Shown here: piece after piece, positions 4,870-32,837 of the stretch | How the letters are laid out: each line of letters begins with the position of its first letter | How positions within the stretch are numbered: the first letter of the stretch is position 1 | From: Methanobacteriota archaeon | Lineage (GTDB): Archaea > Thermoplasmatota > Poseidoniia > Poseidoniales > Poseidoniaceae | Assembly: GCA_018659375.1 (NCBI GenBank) | Contig: JABJMO010000021.1 | Span: forward strand, 1-35,016 | Direction: 5' to 3' | DNA: 35,016 bases | Program-made: the position numbers and the translations under genes | The notes under the pieces: model-generated | The model's database searches: none | What the model was told of the DNA's origin: nothing | The model's input: the letters and a program-made list of their open reading frames with translations, nothing else

Positions 4870-5244
4870 TTACTCTGATTCTGTATCATTGATTTTTTTC
4901 ATCTCTTCTCGGACTTCATCCATATCAAGGGTTTCCAACATCTTAACCAAGTCACGAAGCGCATCTTCTGGTAGTGCGCCTGGCTGCATGAAGACCCCAA
5001 TTTGTTGCTTGAATGCAATGGTTGTTGGTATCGATCTAATATTGAACATCCGACCAAGTTCTGGTTGTTCTTCAGTATTTATCTTGGCAAATACGACATT
5101 CGGAAATTCTTCCGAAACTCGCTCATAGACTGGACCATAAGCCTTGCATGGACCGCACCATTCAGCCCAAAAGTCTAGTATTACAATTTCATTATTGTCA
5201 ATAGTTTCGGCAAAGACAGGTTCACTGAGTTCTAAAGTAGCCAT
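4870..5244 (-). CDS. trx: Thioredoxin
   Basis: A 124-residue protein with the canonical active site WCGPC (Cys30 and Cys33), the preceding FWAEW strand and the cis-proline loop SIPTT. There is no signal peptide, so it is cytoplasmic and would act as a dithiol reductant. After the thioredoxin fold (about 105 residues) a charged helical tail of about 18 residues is added. It is the first gene of a probable minus-strand operon with the S15 lipoprotein peptidase. The 87-base divergent gap to the amidohydrolase gene contains an AT-rich element (5271-5279) placed about right for a short-leader archaeal promoter of this gene. Confidence 0.93.
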
Positions 5245-27735: not shown

Positions 27736-30519
27736 CTACAATTGAACAATGCTAGAGCATATTGGACATTCTACCTTGGTAAGTCTAAGGTCCTTAATAG
27801 TGAATTTAGCAGAGCATTCACTACATTTGGCTTCCTTTTGTGGAATTGACACCCCCATCGCACCTGGTAGAGGAGGCAATAGGCCATCGCCTATTGGTGG
27901 CAATTCTGGGAGTGAGGGTAACACGGCGTCAGTGACAGGCATAGCGATTGGTAACTGTCCATCTAGAGCAGGTAACGGCGGTAAGTTGGCCATCATATTC
28001 TCAGTTATCTCGACTAAGTCTCTCTGTTTCTTACGCTTCATTCGACGTTCAAGACGAGAATTTCCTTGACCGGATTCTGCTTTTATTTCTAAGGTCTGAG
28101 CCAAACTGTCCTCTTCTACTACAGGTTCATCGACAATTGTGGCAACTAGAGATTGTACTACTAACTCCTCAGAATCTAAATTTATCGCCATTGAGGGTTC
28201 ATCATCACTCTCAATGTCAACCATTATATCAACTGAATCATCATCTTCAACCAGAGTAGCAGATAGCATCTTTTCCTCGGTTTCTCTGTTAGAGGTACGT
28301 AAAGAAACTACAAGGTAAAGGAAGATAGATGCAATCAATAACGCAGTAATAATCAACATCAATGCTTTAGTATTTTCATCACCAGGTAATGGTTCAAGTA
28401 AACTATCGAGGAATGATTTCTCTTCTGCCTCAAGCCTTTCATCTTCTAAGGAGACTATTGTTCTAAACGACAAAGTTCCACTGCTGGAGGATACCAAGAT
28501 AATCGAATCGCTATTTGTTGTGGCGTAACCGGTCATGAATCCTTCAACGATTAGGTTTGAAAGGGCAAAATGGTTGTTATCTAAATCCAAAACACCATAC
28601 CGAGTCATTGGCCCATAGGCATTAATTTCATCATATACGATGGAAGTTTCTTCACCATTTGAACTCATAACCATGTTGGTAATTCCGCTAGCTATGATGT
28701 AGTCTGGTTCTTCAGCAGACCATGAATTATCAGTAACAACATATGCGATCTTTGATTCTCCGCCAAATCCTTCGACCCATGTTGCCGCTAAGATATCTCT
28801 GTCATTTTCTTGATAAACTTCTAATTGAGCATTAGAGGCATAGTCTCCAACTGAGTATTGGAATGTCCATGAAGGGTTCCATTCTTGTCCGTGAGCATAC
28901 ATCAAACCAACGCGGTCAATTCCAGTCACGTCATCTCTTATTTCTTGATAAAGAATATGCATATTTTCCTCTCCAAGACCAATTGCTAATTTGTCCCCTT
29001 GAGAAGGTTTGATATCGATATTGGATAATATGTTACTTGAACTCCATGAACTTTCTATATGTGCAGTATCTGACATTAAGACAAAGATTGAGGTTAAATC
29101 ATTGTAAGAGCCACCCGTAGCGATATCCCGATAGTATCCGGCAAGCACGACTCTATCGCCCTTCTTAGCCATATCAAGGCCCCAATAACGGCCCTCTGAT
29201 AGTTTCAAAGCTGGCATGTGGGTTTGTTTTTCTGTGGTTTCACCTGCGTTTGTTATTGATGTCATTGCCACATGTGACAAGAAGTACCCTTGATCACTTA
29301 GAATGTTTTCAGTCCATGCTGCGTGAACAAGGCCGTCATCTCGTAAGATTGCCGTTAATTCTCCTGCCCAAGAGTCAGCCAGTTTGACATCTGCAAGAGT
29401 CGACCATGCCCCCGAAGATGATTCTGTAACGGTTCTAACGTGAAGTTCCCCGTCAACAGTGGTGAAAAGCAATCCGCCATCTTCCATTCCGACAAAATCA
29501 ATTACTGATTCGCCTGAGAGTAAATTTAGCCTAACCTGTGAATCAATTGCGACATTATTCACTACCACTGTGAACCGTAATTCTGAATACTCAGTATCGA
29601 CACCATCACCTGACATTACCACTCTAAAATCAGTGCCTCCATAGATAGATAAATTACTTGGAACTTTAAACGAGGCTTCATCATATCCAGAACTTGAGTC
29701 AGACCCTGGTATTACTAAGATACTGTCTTGTTCAATCTCTGTCCAACCATCAGATTCAATCTTGGCGTATAATGTAAGAGTAAGTCCTGTTGCATCATTC
29801 TGCCCAAGATTGTCAACTCTCACCATAAGTGTATACTTTTCACCAGGTGTGGGAATTAATGGATTTGTTTGGTAAGCTCCTTGCATAAACCGGAGGGTCG
29901 GTTCTTCCGGTCTCTCTTCAACTCCAAAGGAAAAAGAATATGAATTATCTTCCGGATTGGGATCATTATAATTGCTTGATGGATCGATGGAAATGGTCAC
30001 TGTATGAGTGCCAACTTCAGTAGCCCACCAGTACAGTGTAACTTGTACAGAATCACCATCGTCAAGATTTGACAAGGTGACGTCAGACGGATAAATATCA
30101 GAATTATCACCTGGGGCAATCAACTTGATGTAGACATCATCAGCATCTAAGTCTCCAACATTTTCGATAGTGAACTTAACGGTTAAAATTGACCCTGCTA
30201 CGGCAGATAATACTGGTAAGCCAACTTCATCTTGGATTTCAACCACGCCGGCAAAGGCAAAATCTGGAGCAGCAGGCATGTTATCAACATCAAAAGTTCT
30301 CCTAACATCATCTGTTTTTACTCCAGATTCATTGACCATTCTAAAACTAATCCTTGTAGAGCCATCAGAAACAGTTGTCGAGTCCCAACTAAACGACCAG
30401 TCTTGACTACCTACTTCCAATTCAGGCAAGTCTGTACCAAACTCCCATTGACCGTTGTCGACTTTGAATTCAATGTAGTCATGTTGAACTCCATCAACAG
30501 AACCTGAAAAGTCCACCAT
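27736..30519 (-). CDS. Distal half of interrupted S8 protease: CARDB domains, TM anchor, zinc ribbon
   Basis: 927 residues from the first ATG after the internal TGA. As an independent gene it makes no sense: it starts in the middle of an Ig-like domain, lacks a signal peptide, yet has extracellular domains and a membrane anchor. It is in the same frame as the S8 protease upstream, separated only by TGA and five sense codons. Order: rest of an Ig-like domain (1-80); two CARDB-like domains (about 85-330); a beta-rich region of about 350 residues resembling a propeller; transmembrane helix (about 717-738); acidic and Pro-rich cytoplasmic linkers; and a C-terminal zinc ribbon with two CxxC knuckles (CSEC, CPIC). 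There is no visible ribosome-binding site of note before the ATG. Confidence 0.75.
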   Translation of the reverse strand: MVDFSGSVDGVQHDYIEFKVDNGQWEFGTDLPELEVGSQDWSFSWDSTTVSDGSTRISFRMVNESGVKTDDVRRTFDVDNMPAAPDFAFAGVVEIQDEVGLPVLSAVAGSILTVKFTIENVGDLDADDVYIKLIAPGDNSDIYPSDVTLSNLDDGDSVQVTLYWWATEVGTHTVTISIDPSSNYNDPNPEDNSYSFSFGVEERPEEPTLRFMQGAYQTNPLIPTPGEKYTLMVRVDNLGQNDATGLTLTLYAKIESDGWTEIEQDSILVIPGSDSSSGYDEASFKVPSNLSIYGGTDFRVVMSGDGVDTEYSELRFTVVVNNVAIDSQVRLNLLSGESVIDFVGMEDGGLLFTTVDGELHVRTVTESSSGAWSTLADVKLADSWAGELTAILRDDGLVHAAWTENILSDQGYFLSHVAMTSITNAGETTEKQTHMPALKLSEGRYWGLDMAKKGDRVVLAGYYRDIATGGSYNDLTSIFVLMSDTAHIESSWSSSNILSNIDIKPSQGDKLAIGLGEENMHILYQEIRDDVTGIDRVGLMYAHGQEWNPSWTFQYSVGDYASNAQLEVYQENDRDILAATWVEGFGGESKIAYVVTDNSWSAEEPDYIIASGITNMVMSSNGEETSIVYDEINAYGPMTRYGVLDLDNNHFALSNLIVEGFMTGYATTNSDSIILVSSSSGTLSFRTIVSLEDERLEAEEKSFLDSLLEPLPGDENTKALMLIITALLIASIFLYLVVSLRTSNRETEEKMLSATLVEDDDSVDIMVDIESDDEPSMAINLDSEELVVQSLVATIVDEPVVEEDSLAQTLEIKAESGQGNSRLERRMKRKKQRDLVEITENMMANLPPLPALDGQLPIAMPVTDAVLPSLPELPPIGDGLLPPLPGAMGVSIPQKEAKCSECSAKFTIKDLRLTKVECPICSSIVQL

Positions 30520-30534
30520 TCCGCTGATTGAATC

Positions 30535-30537
30535 TCA
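30535..30537 (-). other. In-frame TGA interrupting the S8 protease frame
   Basis: The plus strand reads TCA here. The upstream frame from 32685 and the downstream frame to 27736 share the same phase, and the five codons between the TGA and the next ATG are all sense (Asp-Ser-Ile-Ser-Gly). Confidence 0.9.
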
Positions 30538-32685
30538 AACCGCAGGGCTTGCTAAAGTTACTTTCATCCTGGCCAGGTTGATAACTCTAAAATCGATATT
30601 AGATTCTGCCTCAGTTCCTGTATCATAAGCCCTAGCACTAACTATGACGTACTCTTCATCACTTTGTACCCAGTCTTCAAGGACGTTAACGTTCAAATTC
30701 CAATTGGCAACATCTCCACCTGCGATAGTCCACGGCTTCAATTCACGCTCAGTCCCTGATTCCAAGAATTGAACGATTCGCACTTGTATTTGGTCAAATT
30801 GCTGTGAAGAGGGGAAATTCGTGGCCCCTGAAATCGTCACCCGGTTGCCTTCAAGCCACCATGTATCGTTAGATGGTTGAGAAATATCAACATAATCGCC
30901 ACTTCCATTACCACTTGGTGGCGGATTAACAACACCTGTATCTTCTAGCGGAGTACAAGGTTGGTCAAGTGCGAAATCGATTGCACATGAGGCATCAATT
31001 AAACCAAAGCCCCATTCTTCATGCCATCTATCTGAAACTGTGTTGGCTGCTTTTTCTCTAATCTCTGAAGAGTTACGGATAACATCCATTACTTCAAAGG
31101 CATCAAGAGATGGTGCCGCCTCGCGGACTAGAGCTACTATTCCTGAAGCAATTGGTGTTGCCATGCTTGTGCCGTCTTTTTCATCATAACTGGAATCTGC
31201 TTCGGGCCTTGGAGCCCCTGGTAATGATGTTCCAGTAGCCGCAGTTGCCGACATAATATTCGACCCATAGGCAGCGATGTCTGGTTTCAATTCATCCCAT
31301 TCATTATCATCACCATCATCTAACCTTGGTCCGTAGTTTGAGAAGCTAGATATTCCATCATTAGTCCGATTAACGTTGCCAAAGTCTGAGGCAGATGCTA
31401 CAGCAAATCCAAGATCTGCACTTGCTGGAGATGGTACTCTTTTTGAGCCATCATTACCCATTGCAATTACGCACACGATATCTGCGGTTTCAGTTGCATT
31501 GTTGATTAGCCTAGCTTCTGCACCCGTACCGTTGTCACCTTCATCTCCGGGATTAAGTGGAGAGGAAACTGAGCCAAATGACATTGAGCCAATTTGTATA
31601 CCACGACTAGAGGAATTATGCCCCCAATCAGTATCTGCATTGTTAATCATCCACTGGATACCGCTTACTGAATATTGTGAATTTGTCCCACCCGTGTCGG
31701 TTAATACCTTGATGTCTACGAGGTAAGCCCCAGGCGCAGTCCCGCGATGTTCGCGTGATGAATCTCCTGTACCTAACGCAGAACCTGCAACGTGAGTACC
31801 ATGTCCTTGACCATCGTCTGGGTCTTGTGTGCCATCCGGGTTGGCTGCTGCCGAAGTTGCATCATATCCCGCCACCCACTTGTGGTCATCATATGACAGA
31901 GCATCAGTGTCTGGTGCGTCATTATTATCATCAAAATCGTTTAGTGAACGGTGTTCATTATCAACTCCGGTATCAAGAATAGCAATAACTACTCCTTCAC
32001 CGCTGTAGCCTCTCTCATAAGCAGATTCGGTATATACATCAGAAGGCATTGCCCTAGTTGCTTTACCGGCCACATCATTGGTTGGAACCATGACATTTTG
32101 CATCTCAATTACGACCACTCCGGGCAGGTGATAAATATCCATCAAAGCACTAACTGGAACTTTATCGACCACTATCGCATCAATACTTTCTGGAAGATCT
32201 AACCAAGCACCATTCTCTTCACCTATCCAATTATGCGAATTTAGCACATCGCTAATTTGATTTACTTCCAAATCACTTGGATGCCATGCGTAATCAACAA
32301 TAATGGCTACAGTCTTTTTCCCATCATCGCCAATAATGGCAGTAGGAGAGATAGAATCATAGCCTGAAATAACTCGCTGCAGGCGATCATCCATACCGTT
32401 CCAATCTAAATCAGGCCCGTAACCCAACCACCAGCCTGCTTTTTCCGATGCTGGTTGGTTGTTGCGCAAGTCAATCCTTAGGGGACGGTCACACAATTCA
32501 TCATCACACAACAATGGTGGTAGACCGTCGATTAGGATTGGGTCACCATACATTGATGCTGAATCACTAGAATTGTTGGCTTCGTCAGCACCAACATTGT
32601 AAGAGGCTGCGGCAGAGACATCTGCAATTAAGAAAATGAGTGCTATAAAAAGCGCTGAACGGCGTATTCCAGTTGTCGATTTCAT
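30535..32685 (-). CDS. Secreted subtilisin-family (S8) serine protease, proximal part
   Basis: 716 residues from the ATG at 32685. A longer frame reaches 32742, but the ATG at 32685 has a good ribosome-binding site and gives the signal peptide MKSTTGIRRSALFIALIFLI. A propeptide-like region of about 200 residues comes first. The catalytic triad is complete: Asp238 (AILDTGVD), His295 (GHGTHVAG) and Ser507 (GTSMATP), with the oxyanion Asn region near IAMGNDGS. After the protease comes an Ig-like domain (VDISQPSNDTWW...), then the beginning of a second one that breaks off at the TGA after TLASPAV. As it stands the product would be a soluble secreted protease without the membrane anchor encoded in frame beyond the stop. 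Likely role: extracellular protein degradation. Confidence 0.9.
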   Translation of the reverse strand: MKSTTGIRRSALFIALIFLIADVSAAASYNVGADEANNSSDSASMYGDPILIDGLPPLLCDDELCDRPLRIDLRNNQPASEKAGWWLGYGPDLDWNGMDDRLQRVISGYDSISPTAIIGDDGKKTVAIIVDYAWHPSDLEVNQISDVLNSHNWIGEENGAWLDLPESIDAIVVDKVPVSALMDIYHLPGVVVIEMQNVMVPTNDVAGKATRAMPSDVYTESAYERGYSGEGVVIAILDTGVDNEHRSLNDFDDNNDAPDTDALSYDDHKWVAGYDATSAAANPDGTQDPDDGQGHGTHVAGSALGTGDSSREHRGTAPGAYLVDIKVLTDTGGTNSQYSVSGIQWMINNADTDWGHNSSSRGIQIGSMSFGSVSSPLNPGDEGDNGTGAEARLINNATETADIVCVIAMGNDGSKRVPSPASADLGFAVASASDFGNVNRTNDGISSFSNYGPRLDDGDDNEWDELKPDIAAYGSNIMSATAATGTSLPGAPRPEADSSYDEKDGTSMATPIASGIVALVREAAPSLDAFEVMDVIRNSSEIREKAANTVSDRWHEEWGFGLIDASCAIDFALDQPCTPLEDTGVVNPPPSGNGSGDYVDISQPSNDTWWLEGNRVTISGATNFPSSQQFDQIQVRIVQFLESGTERELKPWTIAGGDVANWNLNVNVLEDWVQSDEEYVIVSARAYDTGTEAESNIDFRVINLARMKVTLASPAV

Positions 32686-32697: not shown

Positions 32698-32837
32698 CTT
32701 CTCCAGTCGACCGATTGTTTGCCATGTTTTGATAGTATCCATTTCTCGACCTTACAATAACCAACTTTCACACCAATGTATTACGATTTTACTACAGATT
32801 TTAATGAACCAAAAATCCCACATTTATAGTGTGCACA

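Follow-up and report, generated by a model that had tools for sequence, protein, structure and literature searches.

A single in-frame stop, probably a base error of the assembly, interrupts the gene of a predicted membrane-anchored S8 protease in a Poseidoniales genome

On the minus strand of a 35,016-nucleotide stretch of DNA from a Poseidoniales assembly (the window), a frame running from ATG 32685 to a final stop at 27736 spans 1,649 codons and is broken only by a TGA at codon 717. This stop is followed by GAT TCA ATC AGC GGA and then by an ATG (30519) in the same frame, which remains open to 27736. What does such an interruption stand for? Are these two genes, one gene whose stop is read through, a gene recently truncated, or an intact gene with an error in its sequence? 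The initial annotation, whose coordinates (30529-30543) comprise the stop and its flanking codons, had described a single in-frame TGA splitting a protease from its membrane anchor and zinc ribbon, and both the position and the anatomy hold (Table 1).

Near its N-terminus the first half of the frame resembles a signal peptide (residues 9-26, with a hydropathy of up to 2.1), and it matches the full Peptidase_S8 profile with 151.5 bits against a curated cut-off of 21.8, all the catalytic Asp, His and Ser motifs being present (DTGVDN at residue 238, GHGTHVAG at 294 and GTSMATP at 505). By profile and motifs the protein belongs to the subtilase family (Peptidase_S8, PF00082), with a predicted protease activity, and the whole architecture suggests a large exported surface protease with a C-terminal helix anchor and a small, zinc-ribbon-like cytoplasmic tail. 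It is a member of a conserved family and not a new protein. As the second half lacks a signal peptide, its extracellular part of about 700 residues would not be exported. A longer ORF starting at 32742 was rejected, since relatives have stop codons between 32742 and 32685, and the start at 32685 is the correct one. In one study (PMC6864105), between one and four extracellular S8 peptidases were present in every MAG of Marine Group II (MGII, Poseidoniales), and at least four S8 frames are found in the source genome. The protein is like those peptidases in its S8 domain, its export signal and the order of archaea to which it belongs, but the source copy is one base away from intact, and its architecture is not described in the accessible text of that study.

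Table 1. Coordinates of the interrupted gene and its parts in the window; residues and codons are counted from ATG 32685.
Feature	Position	Strand	Basis or remark
Whole interrupted gene, S8 protease with C-terminal anchor	27736..32685	-	1,649 codons and final stop; the frame of about 1,650 aa in relatives is uninterrupted
In-frame TGA, codon 717	30535..30537	-	GGA in the two nearest relatives
Putative signal peptide hydrophobic core, residues 9-26, MKSTTGIRRSALFIALIFLIADVSAA	32608..32661	-	Hydropathy only
Peptidase_S8 domain, residues 229-561	31003..32001	-	Pfam PF00082, 151.5 bits; DTG, GHGTHVAG and GTSMATP motifs
Ig-like (Big_7) domain, residues 709-779, cut after its first strand	30349..30561	-	Sub-threshold match in L005; structure model; beta-sandwich matches
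CARDB domain, residues 825-917	29935..30213	-	PF07705, 56.6 bits
First ATG past the stop, GCGGAATG, without spaced Shine-Dalgarno core	30502..30519	-	Sequence inspection
Sole predicted membrane helix, residues 1441-1462	28300..28365	-	Kyte-Doolittle up to 2.9
CxxC/CxxC zinc-ribbon-like tail, residues 1621-1643	27757..27825	-	Sequence CSEC...CPIC; putative metal binding

The relatives of the source genome give the clearest answer to whether one gene or two are involved. The region around the stop is matched in 160 of 171 genomes of the family, the source genome included (159 others have the gene), and an uninterrupted gene is seen across 11 genera. The nearest genus relatives (96% and 93% amino acid identity) have a continuous frame of about 1,650 codons, and the orthologue in Candidatus Poseidoniales archaeon isolate NorthSea_HE361-13_A07 (QXXX01000020.1; L054, genome G022) shares its 96% over all 1,649 positions and has the same neighbours, whereas its codon 717 is GGA and that of the window TGA. 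GGA is also found in G040, the other of the two nearest relatives, and among the 48 same-genus homologues that cover the site the codon encodes Gly in 43 (GGA in 16, GGT in 16, GGC in 6 and GGG in 5) and Ser in five (AGT), and is never a stop; the one-base change from a Gly GGA that the initial annotation proposed thus agrees with its relatives. Since the same frame is uninterrupted in them, the interruption of a single frame here goes beyond chance. The continuity of the domains across the stop, claimed from the sequence at the outset, is borne out as well: in the intact relative L005 a Big_7 (Ig-like) match at residues 709-779 spans residue 717, with 19.2 bits, below the cut-off of 24.1, and a structure model of the stretch in the nearest relative (mean pLDDT 82, pTM 0.63) contains two beta-sandwich domains, the second of which has its first strand (707-713) ahead of the stop position and the remaining six beyond it. 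The idea that the stop lies at a domain boundary was discarded, as the model places it in a loop after that first strand. A Foldseek search of the modelled stretch returned generic tandem beta-sandwich matches (RbmA, FnIII, Fab), useless for assigning a function. The domain logic runs on across the stop, as that of one gene and not two, and the homologues are single genes and not the pairs of separate genes that would contradict this.

Among the matches listed, a stop lies inside the region in only two genomes, the source genome and G024, where the TGA is elsewhere. In the G024 homologue (L034, about 5016-5018; G024:C53) this in-frame TGA stands where sisters have TTA, with more differences nearby, GTT to GGT among them, and these may be base errors of that assembly. 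The homologue in the single-contig genome G001 shifts frame near residue 910 (L051:4181-4208; G001:C1 near 1714985), possibly through an assembly indel, and a 15-base run of N lies some 220 bases beyond the frame change. Runs of N in or near the gene are also present in L012, L016, L037, L047 and L049 (about 380-780 bases in all per locus); as these are scaffold gaps, they account for the split matches at those loci.

How old might the stop be? Compared with G022, omega is 0.042 both before and after it, with dS of 0.44 and 0.53, respectively. With G044 as outgroup, the branch leading to the window has 63 synonymous and 13 nonsynonymous changes before the stop and 81.5 and 12.5 after it, and neither indels nor a second stop were found in the 932 codons that follow the TGA. 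With constraint unrelaxed and no further lesions, the gene does not look like a pseudogene under decay. If the downstream part had become neutral, a rough Poisson bound would limit this state to no more than about 1-4.5% of the branch after the divergence from G022. Because constraint is undiminished and later lesions are absent, the stop must be very young, false or read through.

In 1.891 of the 1.899 Mb of the source genome (G000), we looked for pairs of ORFs in one frame with a single stop between them and a coding appearance on either side, a design that would miss frameshifts and interruptions near gene ends. The screen yielded 33 such pairs. One (L112) was set aside from the comparison with relatives for its low-complexity frame, and in all compared pairs except two the relatives also have a stop between the frames, which makes these genuine gene boundaries. 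Many true boundaries in this genome, between close genes on the same strand, have the form stop-GGTGAT-ATG or the like, with a Shine-Dalgarno core directly after the stop codon and the next start in frame, three codons on. The two lone-stop interruptions are the S8 gene (GGA to TGA) and thrS (GAA to TAA), the threonyl-tRNA synthetase gene, both being G-to-T changes on the coding strand. The thrS gene is present once in the assembly (G000:C64, 61272-63029, + strand; TAA at L187:2500-2502). At this position 30 genomes of the genus have GAA or GAG, and G022 and G040 have GAA within a 29-mer otherwise identical to that of the source genome. A cell cannot live without threonyl-tRNA synthetase. A similar break in an indispensable gene of the same assembly, as base errors would leave, was thus found, thrS being the only case, and since this sole copy is indispensable yet broken in the same manner, base errors are the simplest common cause of both stops. 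Since about 4.5% of coding-sequence substitutions create a stop, some 3.5e-5 errors per base would be needed for two of them. That both changes are G to T would occur by chance in about 5% of cases under flat errors; a surplus of such changes, taken as a sign that the DNA had been damaged, was rejected, given that only 2 of 99 changes on the window's branch within the S8 gene are of that type.

Against this background, the readings that take the stop as functional fare poorly. A secreted protease and an anchored protein independently translated from ATG 30519 by reinitiation would be in line with the position of that ATG, just five codons past the stop, a spacing like that of many genuine gene pairs of this genome. 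However, the frame is continuous in relatives, the second half has no signal peptide, and upstream of 30519 no Shine-Dalgarno core was found at the usual distance, unlike at many true boundaries (in the source genome, a core lies 4-14 nt upstream of the start in 31% of the ORFs that begin with ATG, and of 9% of the ATGs inside frames). The two-gene reading is largely refuted by the single frame of the relatives, and we regard it as extremely improbable. The initial annotation had also suggested that a fixed or read-through stop could let the cell make a released as well as a tethered protease from this gene. The released product would be truncated and would keep the signal peptide and the complete S8 domain, the tethered one would be full-length, and the strong purifying selection on 932 downstream codons free of indels is what translation of the whole frame would require. 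Yet this constraint is equally predicted by an error or a recent stop, therefore the dual-product idea gains no support of its own from it; the cut follows the first strand of an Ig-like domain in the model and does not respect a domain boundary, and the downstream frame is conserved while the stop at codon 717 is in no other genome, so that it is not kept in orthologues. Among the 41 tRNAs of the genome (90.65% complete) none has a suppressor anticodon (UCA included), and no RF01852 match to tRNA-Sec exceeds the gathering score. Selenocysteine was rejected on this account and because the orthologues have Gly or Ser at this residue and neither Cys nor Sec. Recoding of TGA across the genome was likewise discarded, as TGA is the ordinary and commonest stop here, ending 387 of 686 scored coding frames, and the tested same-frame pairs other than the S8 gene and thrS are boundaries. 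In the accessible text of PMC8037382, selenocysteine and pyrrolysine are the only established cases of stop readthrough in Archaea; compared with the recoded archaeal genes it treats (Sec, Pyl and a -1 frameshifted alpha-L-fucosidase), the gene is alike in having an interrupted frame that is intact downstream, but no recoding signal or machinery was found here and the interruption is not conserved. With no trace of the stop elsewhere and thrS pointing to base errors, the proposal of a released and a tethered protease is not supported, and functional readthrough is very unlikely. It is even harder to credit a real stop that is partly read through in one population, yielding a released protease and a small anchored share; this would call for suppression at the thrS stop too, and so for an unusually leaky termination in the strain.

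There remain youth and error, the alternative that the initial annotation had left beside the dual product and that the evidence supports. A real and very young nonsense mutation, fixed or segregating, would leave a truncated, anchorless protease of 716 residues, which may be released or misfolded, with the downstream half not made. The S8 gene is not known to be essential, the genome contains three or more further S8 frames, and the short span of neutrality allowed by the constraint data fits such an allele; against it, the stop in thrS could not be tolerated likewise and would need an explanation of its own, and relatives throughout the family keep the Gly codon and the full gene. This reading is rather unlikely. 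The continuous frame of the relatives, the Gly codon that they conserve, the undiminished constraint and the second lone stop in thrS together favour an error. The locus is one gene of Poseidoniales (Marine Group II), for a large, probably secreted subtilisin-like (S8) protease with a predicted C-terminal membrane anchor. One G-to-T substitution in a Gly codon (GGA to TGA) interrupts it in the assembly, and the cause would be an erroneous base of the assembly or a minority allele taken into the consensus. We consider this the probable explanation, in which the gene is intact in the population. Some points count against it: the thrS stop might be a true minority allele, a second thrS might lie in the missing 9% or so of the genome, unlikely as that is, and two G-to-T changes are weak evidence for damage, since genuine mutations can be G to T too. 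That both stops are errors is our inference, and the secretion and anchoring of the protein are inferred from its sequence.

The case carries a caution that goes beyond this locus: with consensus error rates of the ordinary kind, each MAG should contain about one or two lone in-frame stops, even ones with a perfect domain logic across them, and a housekeeping gene broken alike in the same assembly provides a cheap internal control. The archaea of the living population most likely carry an intact gene and would make the anchored protease as their relatives do; if the stop were real, it would represent a natural loss of the anchor in a conserved surface protease.
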